Shown one piece after another: positions 1,505 through 58,872 of a stretch of DNA of 64,000 nucleotides; positions within the stretch are counted from its first letter, which is position 1, and every line of letters begins with the position of its first letter. A program made the position numbers and the translations under genes. The notes beneath the pieces were generated by a model, which was not told the DNA's origin, did not search any database, and saw nothing but the letters and a program-made list of their open reading frames with translations. The DNA lies in assembly GCA_023512475.1 (NCBI GenBank), contig JAILZL010000006.1, positions 25,767 through 89,766 of the forward strand, in the 5' to 3' direction. The DNA comes from Syntrophobacterales bacterium (GTDB lineage Bacteria > Desulfobacterota > Desulfobaccia > Desulfobaccales > 0-14-0-80-60-11).

Positions 1505-2224
1505 ATGGCGGTTTATCATATCCACCCCCTGGTGGTGGGCATCAACGAGACCGACCAGGGCGTCATGACCTACCTCAAAGGCTACGGCAAGCGCATCTAC
1601 CTGCCCATTTATGTCTTTTACCTCGAAGGCGGCCCCGAAAAGATCTTGGTGGACACCGGCCTGGAGCAGTTCATGGTGCCCCCGGGCGCCCAGGAGGAGC
1701 TGGGGCTGGAGATCCTGGAATTTGAAGACGCCCTGGCCAGATTCGGCCTGGCCCCGGAGGACATCGACATCATCATCCACACCCACCTGCACAATGACCA
1801 CTGCGAAAACGATTACAAATGCACCAACGCCCGGGTCTATGTGCAGAAGCGGGAGTATGAGTTCTTCAAAAACCCCCACCCGGTGGACCACCGTTATTTC
1901 CCGGACCTGCTGGACGAAAACGAGGTGGTGACGGTGGACGGGGACGCCGAGATCGTCCCCGGGGTCAGGGTGATTCTCACTCCCGGCCACACCGTGGGGG
2001 GGCAGTCCGTGGTGGTGGACACCCCCAAAGGCCGGGCGGTGATCACCGGTTTCTGCTGCAATGATCAGAACTTCCCCACCTCAGGCCCGGTGGTGCCCCC
2101 GGGGGTGCACCTCAACCTCCTGGAGGCCTATGAGAGCGCCCAGCGGGTCCGGGAGCTGGGGGACATCCTCATCCCGCTCCACGACCTGAATGTGGGCCGC
2201 CAGGCCACCATCCCGGCGGATTGA
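1505..2224 (+). CDS. MBL-fold metallo-hydrolase, N-acyl homoserine lactonase-like
   Basis: HTHLHNDHCEND metal-binding motif, VILTPGHTVGGQSVVVDT; ATG at 1505 chosen as start. Confidence 0.85.
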   Translation: MAVYHIHPLVVGINETDQGVMTYLKGYGKRIYLPIYVFYLEGGPEKILVDTGLEQFMVPPGAQEELGLEILEFEDALARFGLAPEDIDIIIHTHLHNDHCENDYKCTNARVYVQKREYEFFKNPHPVDHRYFPDLLDENEVVTVDGDAEIVPGVRVILTPGHTVGGQSVVVDTPKGRAVITGFCCNDQNFPTSGPVVPPGVHLNLLEAYESAQRVRELGDILIPLHDLNVGRQATIPAD

Positions 2225-2333
2225 GGGCGAAGGGCCCCTGAAGTATGAGCCTCCGGCAGCCGATAAAAAAGGGGCGGCCCGGTCCTTCCCGCAGGCCCGA
2301 AACGAGGAGGACACCATGATGGACAGACGCTGG

Positions 2334-2498
2334 CTTGACAGGCTGTGGAAAAACCCCCCTGCCCCGCCATCCGGGGGGATAAGGCCGGCCGATTTTGCCC
2401 GTTTTGCGAAGCCGGACCCCCGTTTCGGGTTTGGGGGAGGGGGCTTGGGGGAGAGGACAAGGGTCTGCGACCCCGGGCCCCCTTTCCTGCCGGCCGGG
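2334..2498 (+). repeat. Dispersed intergenic repeat, copy R1
   Basis: CTTGACAGGCTGTGGAAAAACCCCCCTGCCCCGCCATCCGGGGGGATAAGGCCGGCCGATTTTGCCC...GCGAAGCC...GGGTTTGGGGGAGGGGGC...GGGTCTGCGACCCCGGGCCCCCTTTC; aligns by eye with R2, R3 and R5. Confidence 0.85.
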
Positions 2499-2525
2499 AC
2501 GCCGCTCCCCCGGGGGAGGAGGGGC

Positions 2526-3158
2526 ATGACCGTCAGACGCTGGCTCTGGACGGGGGCAGTGCTGGTGCTTTTGTGGGCCTCCCCGGGCTGGGCCCAGAGC
2601 CCCCGGATCATTCCGGTGCCCCCGGAGGTCACCCCCCGCTGGCTGCCGGCCCCGGGGTCCCCTCAGATTTATTACGCCCCCAATATCCCCACGGACGTTT
2701 TCCGCTACCGGGGGCAGTACTATTTTCTCTGGGAGGGGGTCTGGTATGTGAGCCGGAGCGTCCGGGGCCCCTGGAAGCGCACCCAGGCCCCCGTGGCCTT
2801 CCGGCGGCTGGATCCCTCCCTCTTCAAGATGGCCCGGGTCCCCGGCGGTCCGGGGCCGGGCCGCGGCTCCCGGGGTCTGCCCGGTCCGGGGCTGCCGGAG
2901 GGCTATGAAGGCCCCTCGGCCAAGGGTTTCACCCTGCCCCCTCCGGACCTGGACGACCGCTTCAAGCCACCGCCCTCTTTCCGGGGCCAGGTCCCCCGGG
3001 GCCCCGCTCCCGGTGTGCCTCCGGGCGGCGGCTCCCCCGGCCTGGAGGCCACCCCGGCGCCGTATTACCCCCTCCCGGGCGAGGAGGAGGCGCCAGTCCC
3101 GCCGACCCCGGACCCCTCCGGGCCGGGCTCTGATCCCCGGGTCCCCAAGGCCATGTGA
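2526..3158 (+). CDS. Secreted proline-rich protein with one YY..G.WY.S.S..GPW module
   Basis: Signal peptide MTVRRWLWTGAVLVLLWASPGWAQ, then YYAPNIPTDVFRYRGQYYFLWEGVWYVSRSVRGPWK. SD-like GGAGGAGG upstream. An in-frame ATG at 2316 would add 70 aa read through a dispersed repeat. Confidence 0.6.
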   Translation: MTVRRWLWTGAVLVLLWASPGWAQSPRIIPVPPEVTPRWLPAPGSPQIYYAPNIPTDVFRYRGQYYFLWEGVWYVSRSVRGPWKRTQAPVAFRRLDPSLFKMARVPGGPGPGRGSRGLPGPGLPEGYEGPSAKGFTLPPPDLDDRFKPPPSFRGQVPRGPAPGVPPGGGSPGLEATPAPYYPLPGEEEAPVPPTPDPSGPGSDPRVPKAM

Positions 3159-16741: not shown

Positions 16742-16918
16742 GAGCAGGTTGGTGAAATAAGCTTATTCGAAGAAGGGGCCAGGGGCACCAACCCCTGCCC
16801 CCGCCCCGAACCCTCTCCCCACCCTATAAATGGGATGTGGCTTCGCCAAACTCAAAAAATCGGCCGGCCTCATCCCACCAGATTTCGGGGAGGGGTGTTT
16901 TTCAACCGCCTGCCAGGC
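16742..16918 (-). repeat. Dispersed intergenic repeat, copy R2
   Basis: Reverse strand: CCTGGCAGGCGGTTGAAAAACACCCCTCCCCGAAATCTGGTGGGATGAGGCCGGCCGATTTTTTGAGTTTGGCGAAGCCACATCCCATTTATAGGGTGGGGAGAGGGTTCGGGGCGGGGGCAGGGG...CCCCTGGCCCCTTCTTCGAATAAGCTTATTTCACCAACCTGC. Confidence 0.9.
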
Positions 16919-20177: not shown

Positions 20178-20350
20178 GGACCTGGCAGCCTATTGAAACC
20201 AGCCCTCCCCGAAATCTGGCGGGATGAGGCTGGCCGATTGTGCCCCTTCGGGGAAGCCACCTCCCATTTACGGGGTTGAGGGAGGGGTTCGGGGAGAGGG
20301 GCAGGGTTCTGCGACCCTGGCTCCCTCTCCCGGATAAGCTTTTTCAACGA
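20178..20350 (+). repeat. Dispersed intergenic repeat, copy R3
   Basis: CCTGGCAGCCTATTGAAACCAGCCCTCCCCGAAATCTGGCGGGATGAGGCTGGCCGATTGTGCCCCTTCGGGGAAGCCACCTCCCATTTACGGGGTTGAGGGAGGGGTTCGGGGAGAGGGGCAGGGTTCTGCGACCCTGGCTCCCTCTCCCGGATAAGCTTTTTC; antisense to flanking cbi genes. Confidence 0.9.
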
Positions 20351-20399
20351 TCCGGGAGTGCCACCGACAGCCCCACAGGGCGGAGGCTGCCGACGGCCC

Positions 20400-26138: not shown

Positions 26139-26203
26139 CGGAGCCGCTTGTCCAGGGCGACTCCCATGCCTGGGCCCTCGTCATCCGCGAGGGGGTCCAG
26201 ACC

Positions 26204-26362
26204 GTCGGGCAGGTCTTCTGGCTTCCGGATCTTCCTACTGCCTGCGCCTTCCCATCCCCCTAAAGAGGGACAGTGGCATCCTGCAGGGTTCGTCCCCGGT
26301 CACAGCGGCGGGACCGCGACGGCTCTTCCGTCTTCCCTTTTACATCCCGAAGGATACCCGAC
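26204..26362 (-). ncRNA. Cobalamin (B12) riboswitch aptamer
   Basis: Reverse strand GTAAAAGGGAAGACGG...CGCGGTCCCGCCGCTGTGACCGG...GATGCCACTG...GATGGGAAGGCGCAGG...GAAGCCAGAAGACCTGCCCGAC: cobalamin riboswitch hallmarks; closing helix GTCGGG (26362-26357) / CCCGAC (26209-26204). Confidence 0.95.
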
Positions 26363-26594
26363 TGCCGCTTATAGTACTCCCGGAAGCCGGGCTTGTCAAA
26401 GGAAAAAAGGCGGAGCAGACACCGGGGCCGGCAGGGACAGGCGGGGCATCTGAGCCGGGATGCGCAGGTTTTCTGCCGCCTTCGCCGGGGTGCGGGTCCG
26501 GAGCCCTGGCCGCGCAGGCGCCCCCTCCGGGGGATGCGGGCCCTCTCCCCCTCCCTGTGCCCTCATAGGGTTGGGGGCAAGGCGGTTTCCACCC

Positions 26595-27971: not shown

Positions 27972-29392
27972 CCTTTCCGGGAAATCAACTCAGGGAAGCG
28001 GAAGTGAAAAAAAACGCCCAGTTTCCCCCTTATCCGCCATATGCCAGACATGTCCATCTTTTTCAAGCATTTTTTCCTTCCGCATGGAAGAAGTTTCGGG
28101 GGCCCTTGCCGCTCCGGGTCGGGCGGGCATGCGCAGCCCCCTCTCCCGCCTAGACGCACACCCCCGGGTCAGGGCCCGCAAGGCTCCGGGCGCCGGGAAA
28201 GAAGCGGGACGGAGCACTCCGAGGAGCCGGCAAATCACAGCTCTTGGTCGGCGGCGGCAAAGTTCTTGGGTGAGGAACCCTGATACATCTCGCTCCCCCA
28301 ATGAAAAGCTAATGATAAAAATAACTTATCTTGAGAGAGAGCGATCTTGTGGGGCCCCGACCTCCGTCTGAACGCCATGTTCCGCACATGTCCCCGGAAG
28401 CCCGTATGCCAAAAGACCAGCCCCTGAGATCGCCCGGCAGCGGGAAAAGCTGGCCTGGCAGGAACTCTCCCGGGAATTTCAGGCCATCAGCTCCCGGGAG
28501 AGCGTTCTTCTAGCCCTCCGGGAGAAGCCGCTCCGGAGCGTGCTCCTCCAGTGTCATACACCCGCTGGACCCGCCTGTGGCCGGAGCGCCTCACTGACAA
28601 TCTCCTTTGCCGTGGGGTTGTGGGCCTGTCCCTGGCTGGGGAGGTCGGAGACCCTCGGCCTCCGGGAACCGGGAGCCCTGGCTGCGGTCAGAGCCGCCTC
28701 CAGGCGCAGGCGGCCCAGGTCGGACGGCTCCAGGATGAGGATTTCACCGTCAACGGCCCCCACATCCAGGCCTGGGGTTCCAGACGAGCTTACGCCCCAC
28801 GAGACCCCGCCCCCCTGGACGGCGCCGGCCGCCACCCGGAAATGGACTCTTAAGGGGGAGGCGCCCGGACCGGGCCCATGCCTCCCCACCGATCCGGGAA
28901 AAGGCAAAGAGAATAGCCGGCTTCCGGGGCTGTGCGCCCATGGAAAACCGCCCCGGGTTGTGGATCACGCCCTGCCTCACGGCGGCTACCGGAATAAGAG
29001 ACGGCTGAGGATGGGAGGAAGACCTTCCCGCCCCTGTGCCGGCTTTCGGCCAGGCCTGGGGTTGCGGCCAGGGAAGCCGGCAGCTGTCGGGTTTGCCCTG
29101 CATTGGCTCCCTTAGGACCACCTTGAGGCCGGGCCGAAGCGTGGGGTGGGGTCTTAACCGGGGGGCCTGCCGGACGCGGCCGCAGCGGGCCCGATTTTTT
29201 AGGCATCAGAGACCAGACACGGATGCCCCGCCACCCAGAGCCGGAGCCGCCCCCACGGATTGCTGTGCCGGAGACCTGGGCTTCCCGCAGCTCCCCCGGA
29301 TGAGGCCGCAGGAGCGTCCCCACCGCAAGCGGCCCTCCTGGCGATGGGCCGCTCTGTCCCCGGGCCCGCGTGGCGTCCCTACCCCTGGCCGG

Positions 29393-41871: not shown

Positions 41872-44466
41872 ATGGTCAGTCATCAGCGAACCACAACCCT
41901 GCCTGCTGTGGCCCTGGTCGCCCTGCTAGCCGGGGTTCTTTTCTCCGGCGGCGCCGCCCAGGCAGCCCCGGACCCCTGGCCCAAGCGCTTTGAGCATCCC
42001 CAGGCCACGGTCATCATCTATCAGCCCCAACCGGAGGATATGCAGGACGATAAACTCACGGCCCTGGCGGCGGTGTCGGTCAAGAAAAAGGAATGGAAAC
42101 AGCCGGTCTTCGGCGCCATCTGGCTGGCCGGCCGGGTGGTGACGGACCGGGATACCCGCATGGCCACCATTGATGAGGTCAAGGTCACGGAAGCCAAGTT
42201 TCCCGAGGCCACCCCGGAGCAACTGGCCAAACTGCGCGCCTTTCTCAATGAGGGGATGCAGGGCTGGAGCACCACCATCTCCCTGGACCGGCTGCTGGCG
42301 GCCCTGGCGGTGGTGAAACAGGAGCAGCTGCAGGACGCCGGCCTCAGACACGACCCCCCCGCCATTCTGTTTGCGAGCCACCCCGCGGTCCTGGTGCTCC
42401 TGGATGGGGAGCCCAAACTCCTTCCCATTCCGGAATCCCCCCTCCTGCAGGTGGCCAACACTCCCTTTGTCATGGTCTATCATCCGGAGGACCGCCGCTA
42501 TTATCTCAAAGGCGGGGAGGCCTGGCTGAGCGCCGCCGAGGTGACCGGCCCCTGGCAGGCGGCCGCACCCCTGCCGGCGCCGGTTAAGGCGCTGGCGGAG
42601 CAGATGAAGGCCGCGGCCGCTTCGGGGACCCCTAAGGGGGCCAAGTCGCCGGCCAAAAAGGAGGTGCAGACCACCGCAGGCCGGATGCCGGAGGTGATCG
42701 TCAGCACCGTCCCGGCGGAACTCCTGGTCACGGACGGCGAACCCCAGTTCACCCCCATCAGCGGCACCGGCCTCCTCTTTGTCAGCAATACTGAAAGCAA
42801 TATTTTCATGAACACCGCCTCCCAGGAGTATTTCATCCTTTTGTCCGGCCGCTGGTTCAGGAGCAAGTCCCTGAAGGAAGGGCCATGGTCCTATGTGGCC
42901 CCGAACCAGCTCCCCGGGGACTTCGCCCAAATCCCGCCCGCGTCCGCCAAAGGCTTCATCCGGGTGAATGTGGCGGGCAGCGCCGAAGCCCAGGAGGCGG
43001 TGCTGGACAACCACCTGCCGCAGACGGCGGCCATTGACCGCCGGAAGGCCACCACCCAGGTGAAGTATGCCGGGGCCCCCAGCTTTGCCAAAATCCCCGA
43101 CACCAACCTGGAATACGCGGTGAACACCGGCAAGAGCGTGTTCAAGGAAGGCACCACCTACTATGCGGTGGATCAGGGGGTCTGGTATGAGGCGACGTCG
43201 CCCACCGGGCCGTGGCGGGTGTGCGTCAATCCGCCCCCGGAGGTGAACAGGATTCCCCCCAGCAACCCCCATTATGCCGCCAAGTATGTGAAGGTCTACG
43301 AGGCCACCGAGGATGTGGCCTATGTGGGCTACACCCCAGGCTACACCGGCTCCTATGTGGACAACGGGACCGTGGTGTACGGCACCGGATACACCTATCC
43401 GGCCTATACCAGTGCCGAGGCCTATATTCCGCCCCCGGCGCCGCCCACCTACGGTTATGCCGCCACCTATGACCCCTACGCCTCCACCTGGGGTTACCAG
43501 CCTTCCTATTACAACCCCTACACCTGGCTGGCCCCCGGCCTGGTGGGCTTCGGCGCCGGCATGCTCACCGGTTATGCCATCTGGGGCAGCGACCGCTACT
43601 ACGGCAGCGGCTGGTGGGGCAGCGGGGGGTACAACTACAACAACGTCAATATCAACCATAATTACCTCAACAACCGGACCTGGAATGCGGGAGACCGCTG
43701 GGCCGGAGCGCGGCCCGGCACCGGCACCGGCGCCGTGGGGATCCGGCCGGGGGTGGGGGCGCGACCCACTCCCTACCGCAACAATATCTACAACCGGCCC
43801 GGCACGCAGAACCTGCTGGCCTCCCGGCCCGGCGGCCCCGCCACCCGGCCGGCGAGTGCGGTGGCCGGGGCCCGGACCGGACCGGCAGGGGACCGGATGG
43901 CGGCCCGGCCGGGGCAGGGAACCGGCCGGCCCGGGGAGCGCCCGGCGGCCCGTCCGGCCCCACCCGCGGTCAAGCCGGCCGGCGGCAAAAACAATGTGGT
44001 GGCCGACCGCAATGGCAATGTCTACCGGCGGGACAACCAGGGGAACCTGCAGCAGCGCCAGGGGAATCAGTGGAGCCCGGCCGGAGGCGAGCGGCCCGGA
44101 GCCGGAGCCCGGACGGAGGCCCGGCCGGCCGCCCGGCCCAGCCCACCGACGGCGCGGCCCTCGGACCTCACGCAGCGGGGACCCCGACCGGAGACCCGAC
44201 CCCAGCCCCGGGCTGAGGCCCCCCGGCCCAGCCCTCGGCCGGATATGGACGCCAGCCGCCTCAACCGGGAATTTCAGGCCCGGGATCGGGGCGAAGCCCG
44301 CACCCAGCAGTTCCAGCGGGCCCAGAGTTCCCCGGCCTTTGGCGGAGGCGGCGGTTTCAGCCGGCCGGGCGGCGGGGGCGGCGGTTTCCAGGGCGGAGGC
44401 GGCGGACGCGGCGGTTTCCAGGGCGGAGGCGGCGGACGCGGCGGCGGACGCGGCGGCCGGCGCTAA
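41872..44466 (+). CDS. Large secreted protein with three YY..G.W...GPW modules and Tyr/Gly/Pro-rich C-terminus
   Basis: Signal peptide; RRYYLKGGEAWLSAAEVTGPW, QEYFILLSGRWFRSKSLKEGPW, TTYYAVDQGVWYEATSPTGPW; C-terminal GGGGGGFQGGGGGRGG. Confidence 0.8.
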   Translation: MVSHQRTTTLPAVALVALLAGVLFSGGAAQAAPDPWPKRFEHPQATVIIYQPQPEDMQDDKLTALAAVSVKKKEWKQPVFGAIWLAGRVVTDRDTRMATIDEVKVTEAKFPEATPEQLAKLRAFLNEGMQGWSTTISLDRLLAALAVVKQEQLQDAGLRHDPPAILFASHPAVLVLLDGEPKLLPIPESPLLQVANTPFVMVYHPEDRRYYLKGGEAWLSAAEVTGPWQAAAPLPAPVKALAEQMKAAAASGTPKGAKSPAKKEVQTTAGRMPEVIVSTVPAELLVTDGEPQFTPISGTGLLFVSNTESNIFMNTASQEYFILLSGRWFRSKSLKEGPWSYVAPNQLPGDFAQIPPASAKGFIRVNVAGSAEAQEAVLDNHLPQTAAIDRRKATTQVKYAGAPSFAKIPDTNLEYAVNTGKSVFKEGTTYYAVDQGVWYEATSPTGPWRVCVNPPPEVNRIPPSNPHYAAKYVKVYEATEDVAYVGYTPGYTGSYVDNGTVVYGTGYTYPAYTSAEAYIPPPAPPTYGYAATYDPYASTWGYQPSYYNPYTWLAPGLVGFGAGMLTGYAIWGSDRYYGSGWWGSGGYNYNNVNINHNYLNNRTWNAGDRWAGARPGTGTGAVGIRPGVGARPTPYRNNIYNRPGTQNLLASRPGGPATRPASAVAGARTGPAGDRMAARPGQGTGRPGERPAARPAPPAVKPAGGKNNVVADRNGNVYRRDNQGNLQQRQGNQWSPAGGERPGAGARTEARPAARPSPPTARPSDLTQRGPRPETRPQPRAEAPRPSPRPDMDASRLNREFQARDRGEARTQQFQRAQSSPAFGGGGGFSRPGGGGGGFQGGGGGRGGFQGGGGGRGGGRGGRR

Positions 44467-58700: not shown

Positions 58701-58872
58701 CTTGGCAGGTTAGTGACAAAGGTTATTCGGGGAAGGGGCCGGAGATCCCAGCCCCCTCCCCTGCCCCTCCCCCAACCCCGGAGATGGGAGCTGGCGGCGC
58801 CACACCGACCAAACCGGCCCGCCTGCTCCCACCGGATTTCCGGGAAGGGGTGTTTTTCAGGCGCCTGTCAGG
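58701..58872 (-). repeat. Dispersed intergenic repeat, copy R5
   Basis: Reverse strand CCTGACAGGCGCCTGAAAAACACCCCTTCCCGGAAATCCGGTGGGAGCAGGCGGGCCGGTTTGG...CAGCTCCCATCTCCGGGGTTGGGGGAGGGGCAGGGGAGGGGGCTGGGATCTCCGGCCCCTTCCCCGAATAACCTTTGTCACTAACCTGCCAAG. Confidence 0.9.

Follow-up and report, generated by a model that had tools for sequence, protein, structure and literature searches.

The 5′ part of a small secreted-protein gene in this Syntrophobacterales genome carries a copy of a dispersed repeat, R1, lying between two exact copies of the 12-bp word CAGACGCTGGCT (2324–2335 and 2534–2545; positions are those of the window, the whole 64,000-nucleotide stretch analysed), and the question is how this arrangement arose. 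As the sequence-only reading had stated, both copies of the word stand behind a GAGGAGG motif (2304–2310 and 2516–2522) and an ATG (2316 and 2526), and the two ATGs share a frame with no stop between them, the frame 2190–3158 being open through both. That reading took the words for a 12-bp target-site duplication, or for a start region duplicated by the element, and considered that R1 might supply a 70-aa N-terminal extension. We propose instead, with a probability of about 0.85, that R1 is a 3′-truncated, decayed MITE copy with IS5-type termini which landed between two older in-frame starts, and that the repeats on either side of it reflect an older similarity of those start units (Table 1).

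Table 1. Features of the R1 locus and further R1-family copies in the window.
Feature	Position	Strand	Remarks
Metallo-beta-lactamase-fold gene	1505–2224	+	Pfam PF00753, 54.6 bits; synteny anchor, upstream of the R1 locus
First SD and ATG (ATG 2316)	2304–2318	+	Same place in G001 and G002; ancestral in the genus
Direct repeat, copy 1	2324–2335	+	Encodes ..RRWL; aligns with the G002 ATG1 region (MAVRRWL)
R1, probable decayed MITE copy	2335–2487	+	HMM match at 2339–2487; absent from G001 and G002
Second SD and ATG (ATG 2526), likely working start	2516–2528	+	Opens signal peptide MTVRRWLWTGAVLVLLWASPGWAQS
Direct repeat, copy 2	2534–2545	+	Encodes ..RRWL of the signal-peptide n-region; aligns with the G002 ATG2 region (MPGSRWL)
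Small secreted protein gene	2526–3158	+	210 aa; orthologues 77–78% identical in G001 and G002
R1-family copy	16745–16913	−	Region too diverged to align, where G001/G002 synteny breaks
R1-family copy	20186–20352	+	Absent from syntenic G001/G002 regions
R1-family copy	58706–58867	−	Profile match

The window is GC-rich and has 26 direct repeats of 12 bp at spacings of 30–300 bp, so many that the CAGACGCTGGCT repeat alone is weak evidence of any event. The word has no further site within one mismatch elsewhere in the 64 kb, and the match extends, at 86% identity, over 2315–2335 versus 2525–2545. Counted from the two ATGs, 16 of 24 positions agree (shuffle p = 0.0001), so that the register of the repeats with the ATGs is not chance. 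No Pfam family was found for the protein encoded at 2526–3158; its small secreted protein family, so far uncharacterised, has the motif PPxVxPxWTPxPxxPxVxYAPN..DxFxYxGxYY, and tandem pairs of such genes lie 3′ of the metallo-beta-lactamase-fold gene in G004, G009, G018 and G021 (loci L066, L056, L065 and L069). The window also holds an array of about 16 copies of the hexamer GCCCAT (721–817), within a reverse-strand gene whose counterparts in G001 and G002 resemble small secreted proteins, and a tandem repeat with 30-bp spacing (GGCGGCGGTTTCC...) at 44341–44445.

The locus was compared with its counterparts in two congeneric genomes, G001:C3 and G002:C28. In both, an orthologue of the metallo-beta-lactamase-fold gene is followed by one of the secreted-protein gene (92–94% and 77–78% amino acid identity), and in both R1 is missing from the orthologous locus. 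Both nevertheless have two ATGs, 72 bp apart and in frame, each with an SD-like stretch upstream, and the first start unit follows the stop of the upstream gene by 78–81 bp, as against 91 bp here. The R1-bearing genome has MMDRRWLD at the upstream unit, where the relatives have MALRRRLREAPG or MAVRRWLREAPG, and MTVRRWLW at the downstream unit, where they have MPGGPWLL or MPGSRWLL. The two units are still alike in G002 (14 of 24 nucleotides, p = 0.002) and not significantly so in G001 (10 of 24, p = 0.20), while their exact 12-bp identity is found only in the R1-bearing genome, in whose lineage some homogenisation of the start regions is conceivable. Since both starts, and in G002 their resemblance, are present without R1, the two starts and their likeness must be older than R1. 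The orthologous loci thus keep both SD-ATG units although the repeats have diverged there, and the proposal that the element duplicated the translation start falls; the repeats may still stem from a duplicated start region, but that duplication would predate R1.

Synteny with G001 and G002 extends over the first 36 kb of the window (1–36 kb) and breaks at the three R1-family copies there. For the family copies near 16.7 and 20.2 kb the empty sites fall in diverged intergenic DNA and the junctions are imprecise; at R1, divergence of the spacer in the relatives leaves the 3′ edge and the exact target uncertain.

R1 belongs to a family of dispersed elements of about 150–180 bp (full copies 127–174 bp) that carry no transposase gene of their own. 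The first search of the own genome gave 40 matches and a full-length search 46 rows, and at least 60 distinct copies are present among the examined loci of the 2.78-Mb draft genome. The profile made from the copies has a core of 170 positions, and the consensus, flanking termini included, is about 181 bp long. At the ends of the profile stand terminal inverted repeats of about 20 bp (CCTGGCAGGCTGTTGAAAAA and TTTTTCAACAACCTGCCAGG), which across 37 full-length copies read CCTGGCAGGYNGTTGAAAAA and TTTTTCAACNRCCTGCCAGG; the corresponding pattern, GGCAGGNNGTTGAAAAA, has 28 matches in the own genome and none when reversed as a control. R1 covers HMM positions 2–146 of 170 (111 bits), its left edge marked by a YTRR-like TTGA (2335–2338) and then CAGG from 2339. 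It retains the 5′ terminus only: little is left of the inverted repeat at the 3′ end, CCTGCCGG, reaching 2493, being a possible vestige. The copies are old, with about 74–90% identity to the consensus.

The core of these termini also bounds a 1.35-kb IS in G027:C25, which encodes a 361-aa IS5-family transposase (NF033581, 295 bits against a cutoff of 140) and has homologues in other genera (G016, G013 and G003). Likewise, CTAGCAGGNTGTTGAAAAAC bounds IS5-family elements in G027, G013 and G003, all of them in related genera and not in the own genome. IS5 elements use a YTAR-type target, a 4-bp palindrome, and no long duplication is expected of them. The ends of the IS and of the MITE fit such a target, the MITE termini being YTRR/YYAR and resembling a degenerate YTAR, and the left and right terminal 4-mers show no correlation beyond their shared consensus (identical in one of 37 copies). 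Judged by its sequence, the R1 family is a MITE family with IS5-type termini: like other IS5-family MITEs it is short, non-coding and multicopy, with inverted termini of about 20 bp as in the 1.35-kb IS that carries the NF033581 transposase, and with YTAR-like ends. It departs from them in the age of its copies, in that a target duplication is not demonstrable, and in that searches of the own genome brought no autonomous partner to light: the terminal pattern gave MITE-size pairs and stray matches only, and the transposase search a best homologue that is 42% identical and broken. Within the window, a broken remnant with 42% identity to the IS5-family transposase and with one internal stop lies at 28503–28856. 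No account of IS5 MITEs in Desulfo- organisms turned up in a search of the literature.

The idea that the insertion of R1 itself made a 12-bp target-site duplication draws on the exact repeat on either side of the element and on the left copy, which abuts it. We regard it as exceedingly improbable. Both ATG units are present in the relatives that lack R1, the right copy (2534) begins some 40–46 bp beyond the recognisable end of the element (about 2487–2493), and termini of the IS5 type point to a YTAR target of 4 bp. Nor do the other copies show such a scar: in none of the 37 full-length copies does a target duplication reach 8 bp, and the mean shared word is 4.6 bp against 4.5 in shuffled sequence. 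A scan over offsets for a target duplication of any kind gave a best z of 2.9 among about 2,000 combinations, which is not significant. As for the starts themselves, we would give even odds that the start region was tandem-duplicated in the genus ancestor, or that the upstream unit is what remains of the start of an upstream paralogue since lost, in either case before R1 and with CAGACGCTGGCT as residual similarity; this is compatible with the MITE explanation. The similarity aligned on the ATGs, significant in the own genome and in G002, points this way, as do several other genera of the family that have two tandem genes of the secreted-protein family after the metallo-beta-lactamase-fold gene where this genus has one. 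On the other hand, the n-regions of signal peptides (RR..W.L) may become alike by convergence, in G001 the similarity is not significant, and the starts of first paralogues elsewhere (MIRVRKITV.., MPRLLKLTA..) are unlike MAVRRWL.

The suggested 70-aa extension survives in part. R1 would add codons if ATG 2316 were used, but of the 210 bp that separate the starts it contributes 138 bp net (46 codons), and the remaining 24 codons were a possible extension before it arrived. The anti-SD duplex in the own genome is −11.8 kcal/mol at ATG 2316 and −12.6 at ATG 2526, where G001 and G002 have −10.6 and −8.2 at the second site; in these relatives the upstream SD is the stronger of the two. Over the stretch equivalent to R1, 27 of 37 copies have at least one open forward frame (36% per forward frame), and a longer open frame runs over 26 of 60 family copies. 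With open frames so common among the copies, the in-frame, open state of R1 needs no special explanation. The three forward frames are open in 10, 15 and 15 of the 37 copies, so that no frame is preferred, unlike in a family that encodes a conserved peptide, such as the Rickettsia palindromic elements (RPEs).

RPEs are palindromic repeats of about 150 bp that lie in frame within a coding frame; they are reported to have a conserved peptide and to sit often within genes (PMC10969869). R1, likened to them by description only, shares the palindromic structure, the approximate length and the place in a coding frame, but it is a single candidate, it lies outside the conserved protein, and its openness is at the level of chance. 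That the real protein begins at ATG 2316, part of its 70-aa extension then coming from R1 in the manner of the in-frame RPE inserts, strikes us as unlikely, even though no stop interrupts the frame within R1, the net 138 bp are a multiple of 3, ATG1 has a good SD, stronger than that of ATG2 in G001 and G002, and the 72-bp extension of these two genomes is free of indels. Apart from the frequency with which frames run open through family copies by chance, the G001 and G002 extensions differ by three synonymous and nine non-synonymous codon changes, with no sign of purifying selection; a cytoplasmic extension of 70 aa ahead of the signal peptide should hinder export; and the ATG2 SD is stronger here than in the relatives. 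ATG 2526, which opens an ordinary signal peptide, is probably the working start; R1 would then be in the transcribed leader and not in the secreted protein. We think it quite unlikely that the MITE parted the ancestral start from the signal peptide and that the gene then switched to the downstream start, the SD there becoming stronger, possibly with a dual-start protein in secreted and non-secreted forms as the outcome.

Might R1 have a function, as a structured RNA or a regulatory element, and not be the decayed copy of a transposon? We consider this very unlikely, even though the consensus fold, a closed stem with two arms, is very stable (−66.6 kcal/mol, z −10.7) and G-rich stem-loop repeats that share its second arm occur widely across the bacterial family. 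RNAalifold on 29 copies keeps just 11 pairs, with a covariation term of −0.09, as expected of copies that decay after transposition. The copy at this locus is truncated, its leader folds no better than shuffles (z −0.17), and R1 has no Rfam match. In the Rfam scan of the 64-kb window, a cobalamin riboswitch and a tRNA alone exceeded the gathering cutoff; the riboswitch lies at 26191–26376 on the minus strand (110 bits). The G-rich multi-hairpin repeat is intergenic and is seen at loci L072–L100 of the same bacterial family (e.g. L072 around 1501), with a TTTGGGGGAGGGGGCAGGGGTCTGCGACCCCTGGCCCCCTCCCCCAAA arm; it has one arm in common with R1, and some of its copies stand directly after stop codons. 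Its likeness to the R1 family is that second arm (GGGGAGGGGCAGGGGTCTGYGACCCCTGGCCCC), whereas most of the matches listed have the second arm only, without the inverted termini of the R1 family; one full-length relative occurs in G005 (L095).

On the MITE explanation, the family would have amplified in this lineage, R1 being moved in trans by an IS5-type transposase, and in the lineage of this species R1 would have landed in the 72 bp that separated two in-frame start units already present in the genus, its 3′ terminus presumably being lost through a later deletion. The CAGACGCTGGCT repeats would then be the similar N-terminal coding starts (M-x-x-R-R-W-L) of the two older units. The case is close to ordinary, a MITE insertion of a kind already known in a slightly unusual position. 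It corrects a plausible reading, in that direct repeats around a mobile-element copy appear here to be older coding similarity and not an insertion scar, and an insert that is open and in frame is to be expected by chance in GC-rich DNA. The R1 repeat family is now tied to an IS5-type element in related genera, and the shift to the downstream start, if true, would provide a minor, dated case of a translation start displaced by a transposon.
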